This document shows positions 54,667 through 62,292 of a stretch of DNA of 64,000 bases, one piece after another. The stretch lies in assembly GCA_025357755.1 (NCBI GenBank), contig JANXOP010000395.1, positions 1 to 64,000 of the forward strand, given 5' to 3'. The stretch is from Kofleriaceae bacterium (lineage in GTDB: Bacteria; Myxococcota_A; Polyangia; Haliangiales; Haliangiaceae). Under the pieces are notes generated by a model. That model saw nothing but the letters and a program-made list of their open reading frames with translations, had not been told where the DNA came from and did no database searches. The position numbers and the translations under genes are program-made. Within the stretch, counting starts at the first letter, position 1, and each line of letters begins with the position of its first letter.

Positions 54667-55440
54667 TTAGAGGACCGAGAGCTTCGCGAGCGTCGTCTGG
54701 ACCGACGCGATGCCCGAGGTCGCGGCCGACTTCGTGGTGTACATCTGGCTGACGCCGACGATCTGGCCGTTGTCGGCCGTCAGAGTGAAGTAGAAGCGAC
54801 CATCGGTCGCCGTGAGGATCGCGAAGTTCGTGGCGGTCGTCGCCGCGTCCTGCACCGCGAACGCGCCGTTCCAGGCAGCGGCGGGCGTGGTGTACGACTC
54901 GGACGAGAGCACGACCTGGCCGTTCTGCGCGAACACGTTGAAGCGGAACTGGTTGGTCGAGCCGGCTTCGACCTGAACGCGCGCGCCGGCCGTGTTGGCT
55001 TCTTGCTTGTCGAGGTATGTCGTCACGGCCTTGACGCACGAGGTGACCGCGCGGGTCGCGTTCGACTTGCTCGCGTAGGTCTGCGAGAACGAGATGATCT
55101 CGTTGTTACCCGCGACGAGGTGCAGCAGGTAGCCGCCGCTCGCGCCCTGGACGACCTTGTACTGCGCGTTGTCGACGCCGTTGTTCTCGACCGACAGCAC
55201 GCCATTGAGCGCGCCGGTGCGGCTCGTGTACGACTCCGAGGTCAGGAGGATCGCGCCGTTGCCCGCCTTGAGGTGGAAGTGCCAACCATCGGCCGACTGC
55301 CAGAGGTCGAACTTGCCAGCGGCAGTCGAGTTGGAGTCGGCATCGGAGACCTCGTCTTCGCCGGTGGTGGCGCAGCCGACAGCAGCGGTCGTGGCAAGAG
55401 CGAGAACGAGAACCGTGATAAGCGAGTTGAGTTTGCGCAT
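54667..55440 (-). CDS. Lipoprotein with four DUF1508 (YegP-like) repeats
   Basis: 257 aa. Signal peptide MRKLNSLITVLVLALATTAA with lipobox VGC, then an acidic linker. Four copies of the YegP/DUF1508 fold follow: repeats with FHLKAGNGAILLTSESYTSR, LLHLVAGNNEIISFSQTYAS, FRFNVFAQNGQVVLSSESYT and FYFTLTADNGQIVGVSQMYT. Each has the GxI/VxxS..Y core typical of the family, whose function is unclear (stress or surface association is suggested for some). A near-consensus promoter ends about 14 nt before the ATG, leaving almost no room for a Shine-Dalgarno. The gene lies between the terminator and the six-gene membrane operon. Confidence 0.9.
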   Translation of the reverse strand: MRKLNSLITVLVLALATTAAVGCATTGEDEVSDADSNSTAAGKFDLWQSADGWHFHLKAGNGAILLTSESYTSRTGALNGVLSVENNGVDNAQYKVVQGASGGYLLHLVAGNNEIISFSQTYASKSNATRAVTSCVKAVTTYLDKQEANTAGARVQVEAGSTNQFRFNVFAQNGQVVLSSESYTTPAAAWNGAFAVQDAATTATNFAILTATDGRFYFTLTADNGQIVGVSQMYTTKSAATSGIASVQTTLAKLSVL

Positions 55441-55569: not shown

Positions 55570-57057
55570 CTAATCGTATCTGAGGCCTTCCACCGGTGTG
55601 AGCGCCGCCGCGCCCTGCGATGGAAACAACGTCGCGACCAAGCTGATGACGATCGTGATGCCGGCGACCAGCAGCACCTCGAGGAACCGGACATCGATTG
55701 GCAAGCGATCGATCAAGTAGACCTTCGGATCGAGGTGGTAGCCGTACGAGCTCACCGCGTAGCACGCCGTGAGACCGATCCCGACGCCGAGGATCGTACC
55801 GACGCCGCCGATCGCGAGCCCGAGCACGAGGAACACGCGGGACACGCCCGCGGAGGTCGAGCCCATCGATTTGAGGATCGCGATCTCGCGGGTCTTGTCG
55901 GTGACCATCATGGTCAGCGCCGAGACCATGTTCACGGTCGCCACGATGATGATGAGCGTGAGGATGATCACGAGCGCGAGCTTCTGAAAGTTCAGCGCCG
56001 TGAACAGGTTGTGGTTGAGCTCGTACCAATCCTGGACCTGGTACGGCGGACCGCCGAGCGCCTTCTCGAGATGCGCCGCGATCTTCTCGGCGCGGTCGAC
56101 ATCCTTCACCTTCATCTCGACGCCCATCACTTGATCGCCACGACCGACGAGCTCCTGGGTGTCGTGGAGCGCGGTGTACATGAGGCGACGGTCGTACTCG
56201 TCGAAGCCGCTGTAGAAGATGCCGACGACGTGGAACTTGCGCGTGCGCGGTGCAGAGGACTTCGCGCGCCAGGTATCGAAATCGATATTCGAGAGCGGCA
56301 CGACGATCGTGACCTCGTCGCCGAGCTTGGCCTTGAGCTTGTGCGCGAGCTCCTTGCCCATGATGATCGGAGGAAGCTCGCCTTCCTTGGGAAGGATGCC
56401 GAGCGCGTCGATCGCGCCGCCCGGTACTTGCTCGATCATGTGGCTCTCGAGATCGAGGACGCCGCGCACGAGCTTCGGATCGATGCCCTTGACGGCGACG
56501 CCCGAGAGCTCGCCTTTACCACGGGTCACGAGCATCTCGGCGAAGATGAACGGCTGGACCGCGAGCACATCCGGATCGATGTTCTTCGCGGTCTCCATCA
56601 CGTCGCGATACTCGGCGAACGTGGCCTGCGACTTGAGCACGATGACGTGCGCGTTGACGCCGAGCACCTTGTCGCGGAACTGCTGCTGGAAACCGGTGGT
56701 CACCGCGAGCACGATCGTGAGGGCAGCGACACCGAGTACGACGCCGAGCACCGACACGCTCGTGAACACCGAGAACGTCGCGAGCAGCGTGCACACCGAA
56801 GCCGCGATCAGGCCGAGCATCAGGAGGCCCACCCCGATCGAGCCGGTCTCACTCGAGCTCACCATCAAGACGACGCCGATCAGCGCGACGACCGCCGAGA
56901 CGACCGCCGCGACGATCATCGTGCGGTCTTTGCGCCCACCATAGAGGTAGCGAAACGCGATCCGGACCTCGTACGGCATCCGCGCGATGTACGTGGCAAA
57001 CCAGACGAGGAGCACGGCCCCTAGACCGACGAGCGAAGCAGCAGCCCAGGTAGGCAT
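55570..57057 (-). CDS. LolC/LolE-like ABC permease (FtsX family)
   Basis: 495 aa, inner membrane. The C-terminal part is a classic FtsX domain: NMVSALTMMVTDKTREIAIL with KSMGSTSAGVSRVF, VLGVGIGLTACYAVSSYGYH, and the C-terminal PSQGAAALTPVEGLRYD. A MacB/LolE-type periplasmic domain lies at about 125-340. The N-terminal region has extra hydrophobic segments compared with typical LolC/E (about 410 aa). In E. coli this family extracts lipoproteins with a LolD ATPase, but no ATPase gene is adjacent. ATG at 57057 is favoured because it has a GAGG Shine-Dalgarno and lies 7 nt from the preceding gene; ATG at 56979 (MPYEVRIAFRYLY) would give the family-typical N-terminus. It is the last gene of a six-gene operon. 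Confidence 0.88.
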   Translation of the reverse strand: MPTWAAASLVGLGAVLLVWFATYIARMPYEVRIAFRYLYGGRKDRTMIVAAVVSAVVALIGVVLMVSSSETGSIGVGLLMLGLIAASVCTLLATFSVFTSVSVLGVVLGVAALTIVLAVTTGFQQQFRDKVLGVNAHVIVLKSQATFAEYRDVMETAKNIDPDVLAVQPFIFAEMLVTRGKGELSGVAVKGIDPKLVRGVLDLESHMIEQVPGGAIDALGILPKEGELPPIIMGKELAHKLKAKLGDEVTIVVPLSNIDFDTWRAKSSAPRTRKFHVVGIFYSGFDEYDRRLMYTALHDTQELVGRGDQVMGVEMKVKDVDRAEKIAAHLEKALGGPPYQVQDWYELNHNLFTALNFQKLALVIILTLIIIVATVNMVSALTMMVTDKTREIAILKSMGSTSAGVSRVFLVLGLAIGGVGTILGVGIGLTACYAVSSYGYHLDPKVYLIDRLPIDVRFLEVLLVAGITIVISLVATLFPSQGAAALTPVEGLRYD

Positions 57058-57064
57058 TTCGGCC

Positions 57065-58045
57065 TCAGCTTGCCTCGCCAGGGGTCGCGATGCCAGCTCC
57101 GTGTCTCGGCTTGTGGCGCTCCCAGAACCAGATTCCAGCGACGATGATCACGGCCGAGACGATCGCGGCCAGCTCGCCGTGGATCTGGGCGGCATCGGCG
57201 GGGCTCACGAAGTTGCCGCGGACGTCTTGGGCCCGAGCGATCGCGAGTGCGATCCGGCCCTGGACCGTGTAGCCGAAGCTCGCGCCGAACCCGATCATGA
57301 GGATCCATACGCCGACGCGCGAGACCCGCCCGATGGCGCCCGTGTGGGCGATCGAGAAGTAGAAGTAGAGCAGGCCGGTCAGCAACGCCACGAGGAGCAA
57401 CACGGAGCTGACGACACCGAACCAGTCGACCTGGTTGCGCTCGACCGCGGCCCGCGCCTCCGCGCCGACCAGCGCCCCACGCTCGTCCGCGAGGTCGGTA
57501 CGTTCGGCCGCTGTGAGGCTCGGGCGCGACCATGCGTCGTCGAGGCTCGTGAACGGATGATCGGTGCGCTCGAGGACGAGCTTCGCGGCGATCGCCGGCG
57601 ACACGCCGGGGACCTGCGACAGCTCGTTTGGTTCGGCACTGTTGAGATCGATCCGGTCGACGATCAGCGAGCGCGATGCGGTCTTGATCTGATCACCAAG
57701 ATCCGAGCCCACGAGCGCGGTCACCGATTGGCCCGCGTACAGCGCGACCACGAACGCGAGCGGGAACCGACCGAGCCACGCGAGCCTGCGCGACGCCAGC
57801 TTGATGAACATGAACGCGATCAGCAGCGCCGGCACGAGGTCCCACGGCGACATAGGGTGATCGATCTTGAGCCAGAAGTTGTTCTTGAACTGGACCACGA
57901 CGACGTAGCCGATCGAGATGCCGATGAAGAGGTGCTCGGCGAACTTGTAGAACGGGTTGTCGCCGTACAAGAACGAGAGGATCGCCATCGTCAGGAAGAT
58001 GCCGACCCATGCGCCGAGGACATCCATCGGAGCGAGCGCGGTCAT
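57065..58045 (-). CDS. Polytopic membrane protein with internal helix-hairpin-helix domain
   Basis: 326 aa. Predicted membrane helices at about 10-28, 35-53, 68-83, 94-112, 211-232, 243-261 and 294-308. Between the fourth and fifth lies a soluble segment with RIDLNSAEPNELSQVPGVSP (131-150) and a second hairpin (to 170), closely resembling the ComEA-type helix-hairpin-helix found in DNA- or protein-binding modules. The N-terminal motif GDNPFYKFAEHLFIGISIGY is the most conserved-looking part. The HhH may bind DNA or act as a protein-interaction module. ATG overlaps the stop of the upstream gene by 4 nt. Family unnamed to me. Confidence 0.75.
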   Translation of the reverse strand: MTALAPMDVLGAWVGIFLTMAILSFLYGDNPFYKFAEHLFIGISIGYVVVVQFKNNFWLKIDHPMSPWDLVPALLIAFMFIKLASRRLAWLGRFPLAFVVALYAGQSVTALVGSDLGDQIKTASRSLIVDRIDLNSAEPNELSQVPGVSPAIAAKLVLERTDHPFTSLDDAWSRPSLTAAERTDLADERGALVGAEARAAVERNQVDWFGVVSSVLLLVALLTGLLYFYFSIAHTGAIGRVSRVGVWILMIGFGASFGYTVQGRIALAIARAQDVRGNFVSPADAAQIHGELAAIVSAVIIVAGIWFWERHKPRHGAGIATPGEAS

Positions 58046-58938
58046 GGCTGTACGGGCTTCCGGGCCTTGCGGCGGCGGCTCGCGAAGTACGCGATGTTGC
58101 CGAGCACGATCGCGATGATGACGACGCCGTGACCGGTGTTGAGGACGTCTGCACCTTGCACGCCGATGCTCGGGCGACCGACGAGGATCTCGTATTCTGC
58201 CGAGCCCGCGAGGCCCGCGACGATGCCGAGCAACTGCCCCGCCTGGTAGTAGGGCGCGAGGTCGGTGACCGAGACCGCGGTGGTCACCGCGACCATTCGC
58301 AGGTTGTAGCGATTCTGCGCGAACTGCGTGTACTCCTTCGCGCCCGGTGCGCCGGCGGAGACGAGCACCATCAACTTGAAATCGGCGAGGCCGTGGATGT
58401 TCTTCATCCACGGGATCGAGTCGTACGGCGTGCCATCGTCGGTGACCCCCCCGAACACGTGCGGTAGATCCGCACCCATGCCGAGGATCACGTTCTGCTT
58501 GCCCTCGCGAAAGCCGAGGTAGACGTAGTCCTCGTTGCGCACGTATGCGCGATCCGGTGCGCCGGTGTAGCCGGGCGTACCCGCCGGCGCGATCGCGGTC
58601 TCGACCGTGTCGCGGATCCAGCGCTCGACGAGCGGCGGTGCCTGGTACCACAGCGTGGTGATCGCGAGCTTCACGCCCTTCCGCTTCAACTGCAGGATCA
58701 CGGCGCGGTAGTAGGGCTCGAGCTCCGCGGTCGATGCGGGCTCGAGATCGAGCGAGATGAACACGACGTCGCCCGCGTGGAGCTCCTCGACCGCATTGAA
58801 CGCGGCCTTCGTCATCGGCCGCGCCTTGATCGGAAATCCGAGCGGCAGATAGAGAGGGACCACGATCGCGAGCCCCATGATCAGAAAGATCCAGCGGCGA
58901 TCGAAGCGCTGCAGCTTGTCACTCCAGTGGGACATCAC
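58042..58938 (-). CDS. Membrane protein with large soluble alpha/beta domain
   Basis: 298 aa with one N-terminal helix (about 16-34) and one C-terminal helix (about 270-288, GHGVVIIAIVLGNIAYF). The domain between is alpha/beta: VVFISLDLEPASTAELEPYY, LKRKGVKLAITTLWYQAP, EDYVYLGFREGKQNVI, DFKLMVLVSAG and YYQAGQLLGIVAGLAGSAEY. Similar proteins are widespread in environmental bacteria, but I know of no function. It overlaps both neighbours by 4 nt, so it is a core member of the operon. A role in envelope assembly is inferred from context only. Confidence 0.7.
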   Translation of the reverse strand: MMSHWSDKLQRFDRRWIFLIMGLAIVVPLYLPLGFPIKARPMTKAAFNAVEELHAGDVVFISLDLEPASTAELEPYYRAVILQLKRKGVKLAITTLWYQAPPLVERWIRDTVETAIAPAGTPGYTGAPDRAYVRNEDYVYLGFREGKQNVILGMGADLPHVFGGVTDDGTPYDSIPWMKNIHGLADFKLMVLVSAGAPGAKEYTQFAQNRYNLRMVAVTTAVSVTDLAPYYQAGQLLGIVAGLAGSAEYEILVGRPSIGVQGADVLNTGHGVVIIAIVLGNIAYFASRRRKARKPVQP

Positions 58939-59855
58939 TCACCTCCGAGGTGAGAGCGTTCGATGCCCAAGATCACGCGCAAGCCCGTCGCGATCGCGCC
59001 GACCGCGGCGCCCATGATGATCGCCCGGCGGCTGCCGTTCGAGAGCACGTCGAGGATCCAGTCCGCGAGGTGCGGCAGCGACGTGGTGAGCCAGCGGCCG
59101 ATCGGCGCTTGCGCGAGCAGCACGATGATCGCCGAGGTCAGCAACAGCGCCGCATCGAGGTTGCGCGCGCGGAACGCGCGGAAGGCGGCCGAGGCGACGA
59201 AGAACGCGAGCAGCGCGAACATCGTCGCGTTGCACGGGCCGTACACGTGGTCGTAGAACCACGTCCGCACGCGCCCGTTCGCGCCCCACCCCATCTGCGG
59301 ATCCGCCGCGACGATCGCGACATCGCCAGCGACGAGCCGGAGCTTGGTCTCGAAGACGTCGTAGCCGACCGCACGCCGGCTCGCCTTGATCGCGAGCGCG
59401 CCAGGCGCGACCTCGACACACCCGCACGCGGGCAGCTTGTCGGAGGTCACGGTCACGGGGCCGATCGAGATCACGACATCGGCGGGCGCGGTCACCAGCA
59501 CGCGTGCCTTGCCCTCGCGATAGAGTCCCGGATTCGGCGCGAGCTTCATCGCGTAGCCTGGTTCGCGCGTCGTGCCGGTGATCGAGCGCCACGGCAACCC
59601 GACGAGCGTCATCGCCGCGGCCGATGCGAGCAGCACGACCTTGTAGCCCCAGTCCTCTTCGCGCCGCCGGATCTTCGGCCACGTCACCTGCACGAGGTTG
59701 ATGCCACCGACGACATACGCCGCCGCGGCGACGAGCCCACCCCACTCGAGCACGTGGCCCGAGATCTCCCGCACCGCGTAGTGCGGGATGAAGTACTCGA
59801 CGACCATGTAACAGCCGACGAGCATGCCGAGCGCGACCGGGAGCGTGTTCTTCAC
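58935..59855 (-). CDS. Integral membrane protein, six predicted helices
   Basis: 306 aa, GTG start overlapping the upstream stop by 4 nt. Predicted helices at about 5-23, 36-60, 73-89, 198-215, 220-236 and 278-297. A soluble beta-rich domain (about 95-190) contains GKARVLVTAPADVVISIGP, a CGC pair (DKLPACGCVEVAPG) and a Trp-rich end, placed between helices 3 and 4. Family not recognised. The conserved-looking GC pair and the Tyr-rich motif YDHVYGPCNATMFALL may form contacts within the complex. Same operon as its neighbours. Confidence 0.65.
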   Translation of the reverse strand: MKNTLPVALGMLVGCYMVVEYFIPHYAVREISGHVLEWGGLVAAAAYVVGGINLVQVTWPKIRRREEDWGYKVVLLASAAAMTLVGLPWRSITGTTREPGYAMKLAPNPGLYREGKARVLVTAPADVVISIGPVTVTSDKLPACGCVEVAPGALAIKASRRAVGYDVFETKLRLVAGDVAIVAADPQMGWGANGRVRTWFYDHVYGPCNATMFALLAFFVASAAFRAFRARNLDAALLLTSAIIVLLAQAPIGRWLTTSLPHLADWILDVLSNGSRRAIIMGAAVGAIATGLRVILGIERSHLGGE

Positions 59856-61186
59856 GGCACCACCTCCTCGATCGAGAACCGCGTGAAGGGATACCAGCCC
59901 TGGCTCGCCATCGTGGCGCACACCGTGAAGCCGACGACGAGGAGCGCGATCACGACCTTCATCACGTCGCCGGCCTTCAGTAGCGCGAGCTGGTTCGGCT
60001 CGCGCGTGAGGTACGCGCTGCACGCGAACAGCTCTTCGCCCATCAGCGTGAAGTCGCACGCCGAGATGAAGAAGGGCAACTGCGTGAGCTCGCCAGTCCC
60101 CGCGATCTGCACCGCGCCGGTGAGAAAGCCGGTCTCGGCGAGCAGCAGCGACTCGGCGTAGAACCGCCCGAAGTAGATGTTCGTCGCGGGGCGCTCGCGC
60201 AGGATCATGCCGTTGACGCCGGCAGCGAACGCGAACTGGTCGCTCGTCACGAACATCACGTTCTCTGGCCGGTGCGCATCGGCGCGGCCCGCATTCGCAT
60301 AGCCCTGCCGCACCACCTCCTCGGCGATCACCATCGTCAGTGGATACGCATTCGCGACGCGCAGCTCGGTCTCGTACTCCGCCGTGATCTTCGCGACGTG
60401 ACCGAGGATCAACAGCGAGGCGATGGTCTGGATATCCTGGGTCTCCTCGACGCCGGTGACGTACAGCACCGGGCGACCCATCTCCGTCGATCGACCGACC
60501 GCATCCTCGATCGCATCGACGCCGGCGAGCCGGCGGACGAACAGCTCCTTCCTCCGTGCGAGCCACGTGTAGAAGCCGAGCGCGCCCGCGATGATCAGGA
60601 TCAGCGCGAGGTGGAACCAGCGATGGCGATCGAACAGCGCGGGACGTGGCTGGATCGTCCAGGTCTCGATCGCCTCGCCCGGAAACGAGCTGTAGGTATC
60701 CGGCGCAGCGCCGCGCAGCGCCGGAATGAAGATGTAGATGTAGCCAGTCCCGGGCGAGACCTCGTCGACGTAGAGCTCGGGATGATCGCCATCCGAAGAG
60801 GTGACCACCGTCCAGCGCCCGAGGCGTGCGCCTGCCACGAGCGGCGTGGTCGCCGCATCGATCGCAGCGACGGCCTCCTTGGTCTCGCCGAGAAATTGCG
60901 GCCCGAGCACCGCCCCACTCGGCGTGATCCGCACCGGCCGACCCTTGTCGGGATGCTCGCCGAACTCGACCTCGCGGCGCAGGACGAGCACCGCCCCGGG
61001 GACCTCGTGATCGCGCTTCCACGACAGGCCGACGTGCTTGCCATCGGCTGCGATGCCGCGCCCGCCGAACCAATCCTGGTCGTAGAACACCCCGATCTCC
61101 CACGCCGTCTTGTCGGGATTCTGCTCGACGAGATCGGCGCGCGCGGTCGCGGTCAGTGCGAGCAATACGATCAACGCCTTCTTCAT
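59852..61186 (-). CDS. Membrane protein, DUF6754-like
   Basis: 444 aa. Signal peptide (MKKALIVLLALTATARA), periplasmic domain about 18-190 (beta-rich), helix at about 196-216 (FHLALILIIAGALGFYTWL), a cytoplasmic region with GRPVLYVTGVEETQDIQTIA, HVAKITAEYETELRVANAYP, FVTSDQFAFAAGVNGMILRE and FGRFYAESLLLAETG, then a helix at about 407-427. The cytoplasmic part reminds me of DUF6754 proteins, found in several phyla without a known role; this is from memory. It overlaps the next gene by GTGA and the previous one by ATGA. Probably the central scaffold of the operon product. Confidence 0.7.
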   Translation of the reverse strand: MKKALIVLLALTATARADLVEQNPDKTAWEIGVFYDQDWFGGRGIAADGKHVGLSWKRDHEVPGAVLVLRREVEFGEHPDKGRPVRITPSGAVLGPQFLGETKEAVAAIDAATTPLVAGARLGRWTVVTSSDGDHPELYVDEVSPGTGYIYIFIPALRGAAPDTYSSFPGEAIETWTIQPRPALFDRHRWFHLALILIIAGALGFYTWLARRKELFVRRLAGVDAIEDAVGRSTEMGRPVLYVTGVEETQDIQTIASLLILGHVAKITAEYETELRVANAYPLTMVIAEEVVRQGYANAGRADAHRPENVMFVTSDQFAFAAGVNGMILRERPATNIYFGRFYAESLLLAETGFLTGAVQIAGTGELTQLPFFISACDFTLMGEELFACSAYLTREPNQLALLKAGDVMKVVIALLVVGFTVCATMASQGWYPFTRFSIEEVVP

Positions 61187-62292
61187 CGCTCGATCACTTC
61201 GACGTTCGCGCGCGGCAGGATCAAGATCTCGCCTCCGAGATCGACTTCGACGACCCGAGCCTTGGTCTCCGTCGGCATCACCGCGAGCTCGACCGGCAAC
61301 GAGATCACGGTGCCGATCTTGCCGAAGTGGGGCGCGCGGATCGCGCGCACCGGCGCACCGACCTCGAGGCCGTGGACCGCGAGCGGTTCGCCGGTCCCGA
61401 ACGCGCCTGGCACCACGATCTCGGGCCGGATCACGCCGGCGCGGATCTGGGTCGCGCCGTTGACGCTCGCGAGCTTGCCCTCGAGGCTCTGCAACAACTC
61501 GAACGTCGCACGCGCCATCGCGATGTCGCCGAAGCCCTCGGTCACGATCAAGGTCGTCGCGAGCTCCTCGTTACCCGTGACCGCCACGCCGACGTCGTAG
61601 CCGAGCAGCTCGCGGACATCTTGATACGCGAACCCGCCGCACACGATCGCCGCGACCTCGAGCTCGACCGCCCGGCGTAGCGCCGCGAGGCTCGCGCGCC
61701 CGCCGCCGATCACGACCTTGCCGCGATGCGCTTCGCTCAGATCCGCGGGTTCGAGCACATGCTCGCGGCTCTTCGCGACCATCATGATCGGCGCCTGGCG
61801 CTCGCCGGCGAGGCCGAAGATGCCCTGCACGAGCGCCGCACGCGTCTCGATCACGACGCCCTCGCCCGCCATCACCTCGACGACGGTCCCGTCGACGTAT
61901 GCGGTCACCTCGACGGGCCGCGGGGGCTCGCGAAAGATCGCCATGCCGGTCACCGAGGACAAGGCTTCGAACGTTCCCTCGACCGGTGCCTCGACCTGCG
62001 ACGAGAACAAGCCGAACAAGCCCTTCGCGCGCGCGATGACCTCGCCCTTTTTCACGACAGCGCCGACCGCGACGATCAACTTCTGCTCGACCTCGTCCGC
62101 CATCACGCCGAGCTTGCTCGCGACGTTCGTCAAGACGACGTTGCCTGGTAACTCGGTCCGCGCGACGACGTCCGCGGCCTTGACCTGGGCGCCGACCTCG
62201 ACGACGACCGTGCCTTCGAGCGGCAGCCTCCGGTATTTCTTGACCAGCGCGCTGCGCGTCACGGTCAGACCAGGAGTGTACGCGTCGCCCAT
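61183..62292 (-). CDS. Cytoplasmic barrel-sandwich/KOW-like protein, first gene of the membrane operon
   Basis: 369 aa, no membrane helix. The N-terminal half has two lipoyl/biotinyl-like barrel-sandwich repeats (VEVGAQVKAADVVARTELPG; VGAVVKKGEVIARAKGLFG) lacking the Lys-centred MKM attachment motif, so it is not obviously modified. A central part reads GKVVIGGGRASLAALRRAVE and IVCGGFAYQDVRELLGYDVG. The C-terminus resembles a KOW/SH3-like fold (APVRAIRAPHFGKIGTVISL, then ILILPRANVEVIE). Such modules usually bind nucleic acids or partner proteins. ATG at 62292 is divergent (43 nt) from the LRR gene. It starts the six-gene operon and may be its cytoplasmic adaptor. Confidence 0.72.
   Translation of the reverse strand: MGDAYTPGLTVTRSALVKKYRRLPLEGTVVVEVGAQVKAADVVARTELPGNVVLTNVASKLGVMADEVEQKLIVAVGAVVKKGEVIARAKGLFGLFSSQVEAPVEGTFEALSSVTGMAIFREPPRPVEVTAYVDGTVVEVMAGEGVVIETRAALVQGIFGLAGERQAPIMMVAKSREHVLEPADLSEAHRGKVVIGGGRASLAALRRAVELEVAAIVCGGFAYQDVRELLGYDVGVAVTGNEELATTLIVTEGFGDIAMARATFELLQSLEGKLASVNGATQIRAGVIRPEIVVPGAFGTGEPLAVHGLEVGAPVRAIRAPHFGKIGTVISLPVELAVMPTETKARVVEVDLGGEILILPRANVEVIER

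Follow-up and report, generated by a model that had tools for sequence, protein, structure and literature searches.

Five consecutive genes on the reverse strand of the window analysed here (the whole 64,000-nucleotide stretch, from an 8.6-Mb draft genome in 450 contigs whose nearest relatives are Kofleriaceae-type Myxococcota) would, in our reading, encode most of a single multi-protein machine of the inner membrane for ATP-driven envelope export or assembly, completed by two small proteins, X1 and X2, and an ASKHA ATPase. We put the probability of this at roughly 0.4. The five genes, termed g1 to g5, and a permease gene that follows them (g6) were confirmed as open reading frames (ORFs) between positions 55570 and 62292, and all window coordinates below refer to the reverse strand. 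The conserved gene order, the co-occurrence of the genes even where they are unlinked and the intact motifs of the ATPase are demonstrated; as to function, we consider a machine for ATP-driven transport or assembly in the envelope most likely.

A contig scan for DUF6754, the main domain of g2, gave at least 566 confirmed matches, and 79 loci were retained. These come from Zixibacteria, Cloacimonadota, WOR-3/Stahlbacteria, Fermentibacteria, Eisenbacteria, Latescibacterota, Riflebacteria, Gemmatimonadota, Armatimonadota, Coatesbacteria, a Phycisphaerae metagenome-assembled genome and others; nearly all share the same gene order, and two or three tandem copies are frequent. Altogether g2-g3-g4-g5 are collinear in 110 complete cassettes from many phyla, and this conservation of order is far beyond chance. 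Scattering of the homologues in other genomes had been named by an initial annotation of this DNA as the outcome that would speak against an operon of this kind, and the neighbourhood search found them strongly clustered instead. DUF6754 is present in 76 of 80 sampled genomes of the WOR-3 phylum, 136 of 151 of the Armatimonadota phylum and 16 of 284 Myxococcota genomes, where the four genes follow one another in this order on every contig of sufficient length. The order X1-X2-g2-g3-g4-g5 is kept in 14 of 15 Armatimonadota loci (L138 is recognisable only to g3), and the ATPase and g1 adjoin the cassette in none of the 15. On a tree of the 110 complete cassettes (FastTree, midpoint root) the window cassette falls among other Kofleriaceae-type and Myxococcota/Deltaproteobacteria cassettes, and tandem copies of several genomes sit in deep clades of their own, by which the duplication would be old. 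Variant arrangements were also seen: a degenerate second cassette (g2- to g5-like, most conserved motifs lost) directly after an intact g2 (L084:10926-14017), solo DUF6754 genes with an ectodomain and no adjoining g3-g5 (L098:10568-11746 and L111:9683-10768), and, in the Armatimonadota phylum, two tandem DUF6754 genes followed by a single g3-g4-g5, with g2 lacking the ectodomain (L140:8530-10187). Neighbouring gene families (glycine cleavage, enoyl-CoA hydratase, TonB receptor/PorV-like, GlmU/Prs/RecO) were considered as functional hints and left unused, as they recur only within related lineages.

The junctions within the window were examined separately. Those of g1/g2 and g4/g5 are both ATGA, i.e. 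clear 4-nt overlaps, and g2/g3 likewise overlaps by 4 nt, g3 starting with GTG behind a good ribosome-binding site (GAGGAGG). At g3/g4 the overlap is 4 nt only with the GTG start of g4 at 58938; the next codon, ATG 58935, gives a 1-nt overlap (TGATG) with better spacing from GGAGG and is more likely the start. Therefore, of the four consecutive 4-nt overlaps first claimed, three stand and one is uncertain (4 or 1 nt). The permease was likewise said to follow after 7 nt, which holds if its first ATG (57057) is used; in L021, L022 and L043 the homologues start where M27 of g6 aligns (~56979), and with that start the gap to g5 may be ~85 nt. Across phyla the median gaps along g2-g3-g4-g5 are 15, 4 and 8.5 nt, and overlaps by themselves are ordinary in a compact operon.

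Clustering of neighbouring ORFs together with hidden Markov models gave the usual order as X1, X2, a MutL/GlmL-type ATPase and then g1 to g5, the ATPase lying immediately before g1 in most of the loci for which there is sequence. X1 (~135 aa, two membrane helices) and X2 (~110 aa) matched no family. The ATPase belongs to PF13941 (414 and 424 bits) and keeps the ASKHA phosphate-1, phosphate-2 and adenosine motifs (ATDCGSTTTKAILI, DIGGATTD and GSGGVLSHAPRR) in at least 90% of 38 sequences; by these motifs it would be a member of the ASKHA ATPases, with ATP use predicted. In NCBIfam it comes nearest to GlmL and to the ornithine-degradation protein Or-4, so the genes might instead serve an enzyme as a chaperone or reactivation system anchored in the membrane, with the MutL-type protein in the part ascribed to GlmL for B12-dependent glutamate mutase. 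However, the scores fall far below the cut-offs of GlmL (217.5 against 475) and Or-4 (206 against 600) and also below that of the GlmL family (158.7 against 204.05), the protein has ~150 aa more, the neighbourhoods examined show no recurring mutase gene and the conserved membrane partners would be left unexplained, which makes such a system improbable.

In the genome of the window the C-terminal part of the ATPase is encoded on the strand of g1, 13.7 kb upstream of it (G000:C402:75977-77488, reverse), where the contig end cuts the gene, and the N-terminal part, preceded by X1 and X2, is found at the end of contig C249. This genome therefore seems to have broken up the ancestral operon. A similar separation of ATPase and g1 (~10 kb) occurs in G047. 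The 13.7-kb spacer (L124:2060-13968) carries mostly forward-strand genes, which by eye include an SDR/multifunctional beta-oxidation-type enzyme, a thiolase-like protein, an MFS transporter and a TetR-type regulator, and is an apparent insertion or rearrangement. Second, divergent g1 copies were seen in five genomes (G293, G306, G317, G321 and G328; e.g. G321:C17:43368-44249), with open frames of ~900-1050 aa and several matches crossing a stop; these are possibly fused or in-frame ATPase-g1 paralogue pairs. The membrane complex with a cytoplasmic adaptor proposed initially is supported as regards g1 and the clustered genes, but its true partners, X1, X2 and the ATPase, lie outside the window, and its export or quality-control function is something that we infer.

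The genes also occur together where they are not linked. Among 284 Myxococcota genomes g1 was found in 14 and DUF6754 in 16, with 13 shared (P=8e-19, uncorrected for shared ancestry). In DUF6754-positive genomes of the Armatimonadota phylum g1 is present in 45 of 46 and the MutL-type ATPase in 46 of 46, both unlinked to the cassette; for the ATPase this compares with 4 of 15 DUF6754-negative genomes in which PF13941 scores above cut-off (P=3e-9, likewise uncorrected). In the genomes of the cassette loci g1 is found in 48 of 50, usually as one full-length copy, and DUF6754 in 1-6 copies per genome. Three single-chromosome genomes give DUF6754 to g1 ratios of 5:1 (G305), 6:1 (G327) and 2:1 (G331). 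Since the DUF6754 cores outnumber g1, this suggests that one shared ATPase-adaptor pair serves as the power unit of several membrane cores.

The g1 product (61183-62292, 369 aa) is soluble, with a barrel-sandwich-hybrid region, an alpha/beta middle and a KOW-like C-terminus according to the family alignment and weak profile matches, in agreement with the cytoplasmic barrel-sandwich/KOW-like protein of the initial annotation. Profile search of the family gave weak RnfC_N, biotin-lipoyl and NqrA_N similarity, the RnfC/NqrA-like part being the first 115 residues, and comparison with solved structures by sequence gave a weak KOW/SPT5 match. The weak RnfC_N and NQRA_N matches, along with conserved charged residues in g3 and g5, could point to an ion- or redox-coupled membrane complex with g1 as an RnfC/NqrA-type cytoplasmic subunit and g3/g5 as membrane subunits. 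Yet g1 scores below the cut-offs (18.6 against 25.6 bits for RnfC_N, 13.6 against 245.95 for RnfC), the Fe-S cysteines of RnfC were sought and no Cys reaches 90% conservation in 35 g1 sequences, none is conserved in the g3, g4 or g5 families, the cassettes hold no Rnf/Nqr partner gene, and such a complex has no need of an ATPase partner. We regard it as very improbable.

Of the four membrane proteins described initially as uncharacterised, g3 and g4 have no Pfam or NCBIfam family above cut-off, whereas g2 is a strong member of the named family DUF6754 (PF20539, E=1.9e-100; 335.7 bits against a curated cut-off of 27). The g2 product (59852-61186, 444 aa) has a signal sequence, an FnIII-like extracytoplasmic domain, a membrane helix, the cytoplasmic Rossmann-like DUF6754 domain (residues 182-424, 59915-60643) and a second membrane helix; the family profile gives FnIII matches as well, ahead of the first helix, and the DUF6754 core alignment of 11 Myxococcota sequences has 62% mean column identity. 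The g3 product (58935-59855, 306 aa) is polytopic by hydropathy (five or six predicted membrane helices in relatives), with a homologue in every complete cassette, and carries a lineage-specific beta-rich insert; in the Kofleriaceae this looks PEGA-type by eye, and most g3 proteins of other phyla are without it. In g4 (58042-58938) a Rossmann-like domain, predicted to be extracytoplasmic, stands between two membrane helices, both ends being positively charged. The g5 product (57065-58045) is polytopic, with mostly four or five predicted helices in the family and a SFLYKDNPFYKFAEH motif; the Kofleriaceae form has an inserted helix-hairpin-helix (residues 131-173, 57527-57655; PF12836, E=4.8e-8) that is absent from most homologues, e.g. 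the 217-aa g5 of L080.

Hydropathy and the positive-inside rule place the FnIII part of g2 and the g4 domain outside and DUF6754 inside. AlphaFold2 models (g4: predicted local distance difference test, pLDDT, 93.7 and predicted template modelling score, pTM, 0.89; g2: pLDDT 80.8 and pTM 0.69, with the DUF6754 core above 90) each show a Rossmann-like alpha/beta domain between two membrane helices, so that a large domain is predicted on each side of the membrane. The similar strand and helix order of the two domains led us to consider them as paralogues, but profile comparison gave no support. Search of solved structures by sequence returned FnIII only for g2 and nothing significant for DUF6754 or g4. 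Foldseek against the PDB gave nothing at E<=1e-3 for g2, and for g4 SDR-type Rossmann matches with TM-scores of ~0.3 or lower, judged generic; for neither protein did it yield a specific structural relative.

The main rival is a membrane signalling or sensing complex, in which DUF6754 would bind a nucleotide or metabolite, the ectodomain would sense the state of the envelope and the ASKHA protein would be a nucleotide-dependent switch. Rossmann-like folds predicted on both membrane sides, a universal stress protein (USP) type among the best, though weak, structural matches of DUF6754 (E=4.7e-3), a variable g2 ectodomain with several copies per genome, and a response-regulator gene beside g1 in four related Armatimonadota loci all fit such a role. 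However, the conserved set is without a kinase, HAMP, receiver or DNA-binding domain, the response regulator adjoins g1 in only 4 of 14 loci, and a system near-universal in two phyla suggests a central role in the cell. We therefore consider sensing unlikely.

In the envelope machine that we favour, the membrane core would consist of g2-g5, normally with X1 and X2, and the cytosolic pair of the long MutL/GlmL-family ATPase and the adaptor g1. The pair would dock on DUF6754; ATP binding and hydrolysis would change the conformation of DUF6754, and the change would reach the g4 domain and the g2 ectodomain through the membrane proteins g3 and g5, driving export or assembly of an envelope component. 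A single pair may serve one or several cores differing in the g2 ectodomain, and the LolC/E permease would be a local neighbour and no component. Several points count against this scheme. Physical interaction and ATPase activity are predicted from sequence, as is the topology (hydropathy and the positive-inside rule), an envelope cargo is presumed, none of the homologues found has a known function, and the generic Rossmann-like matches of the models may fit binding or sensing equally with transport. The co-occurrence P values carry no correction for shared ancestry, and g1 had no match in 2 of the 50 cassette-locus genomes (incomplete assembly is possible). Also, solo g2 copies exist, and the Armatimonadota g2 is mostly without the ectodomain (short open frames), which is therefore not essential.

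That an ordered multi-gene membrane system occurs in many phyla, and is near-universal in at least two, suggests a process central to the bacterial envelope. It is conceivable, though we hold it only tentatively, that these genes represent an unrecognised class of transmembrane machine, driven by an ASKHA protein as opposed to ABC, AAA+ or SecA-type ATPases, core to the envelope of whole phyla and combining one cytosolic ATPase-adaptor unit with several interchangeable cores. If so, this would be a new way to power transport or assembly. The system is open to bench study since two cultured bacteria, Fimbriimonas ginsengisoli Gsoil 348 and Chthonomonas calidirosea T49, carry it. On the published chromosome of F. 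ginsengisoli (PMC4072686) the ATPase (4.42 Mb), g1 (5.06 Mb) and the cassette (5.07 Mb) are all separate. C. calidirosea (L130) has X1-X2-g2-g3-g4-g5 intact even though its histidine, tryptophan and purine biosynthetic genes are reported to be dispersed (PMC4959169), which suggests strong selection for joint production of the cassette proteins.

The permease g6 (55570-57057), counted initially as a member of the complex, is better described as a lineage-specific neighbour outside the conserved system. Out of 96 loci it adjoins the cassette only in L021, L022/L044, L035 and L043, all Kofleriaceae-type relatives, and in L022 two tandem, nearly identical LolC/E-family permease genes stand behind the cassette (L022:13075-15939). 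A Lol-type lipoprotein sorting variant, with g6 as the permease and g1-g5 as accessory factors, would draw on this placement after g5 (four related lineages, one of them with two copies) and on membership of the LolC/E superfamily. But g6 lies below the TIGR02212 lolCE cut-off (313.4 against 362.45 bits), the permease is absent beside other cassettes save for one weak FtsX-type match 4 kb downstream in L129, and LolCE, LolD and a BamA-type gene stand at a separate locus of this genome. As an account of the entire system the variant is largely refuted and highly improbable. No LolD-type ABC ATPase adjoins g6 or its L022 and L043 homologues, as was claimed at first for the window. Downstream of g6 lies a lipoprotein-like ORF (54667-55440) with repeats that may resemble YegP/UPF0339. 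A plasmid sequence search gave no match.

The claim that the system is undescribed agrees with the literature searched, in which no description of DUF6754, PF20539 or the system was found (open-licence papers only, so that one may exist elsewhere), and a search for GlmL returned only mismatch-repair MutL papers. The system is apparently new on the basis of this search and the failed membership tests, as distinct from a demonstrated function. The PF20539 entry, of which g2 is a strong member, covers a single domain, and its operon, partners and ATPase have no description in the papers found. With LolCDE the likeness is confined to the neighbour g6, as the link is Kofleriaceae-type only, LolD lies elsewhere in the genome and the g2-g5 core has no ABC ATPase. 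The RnfC/NqrA N-terminal barrel-sandwich is weakly resembled by g1, which differs in having neither Fe-S nor conserved Cys and no other Rnf/Nqr subunit beside it. The ASKHA fold family and the ATP motifs are common to the partner ATPase and GlmL/MutL (PF13941), but the partner ATPase is ~620 rather than ~460 aa long, has an extra C-terminal domain and is tied to a membrane cassette and not to a mutase.

MreBCD/RodZ and PilMNOP are actin-fold (ASKHA) envelope platforms in which a cytosolic ASKHA protein is coupled to membrane proteins with extracytoplasmic domains. They may serve as a working analogy; no sequence relation was found, though homology with them was not specifically tested. The present system would differ from both in having Rossmann-like domains on the outer as well as the inner side of the membrane.

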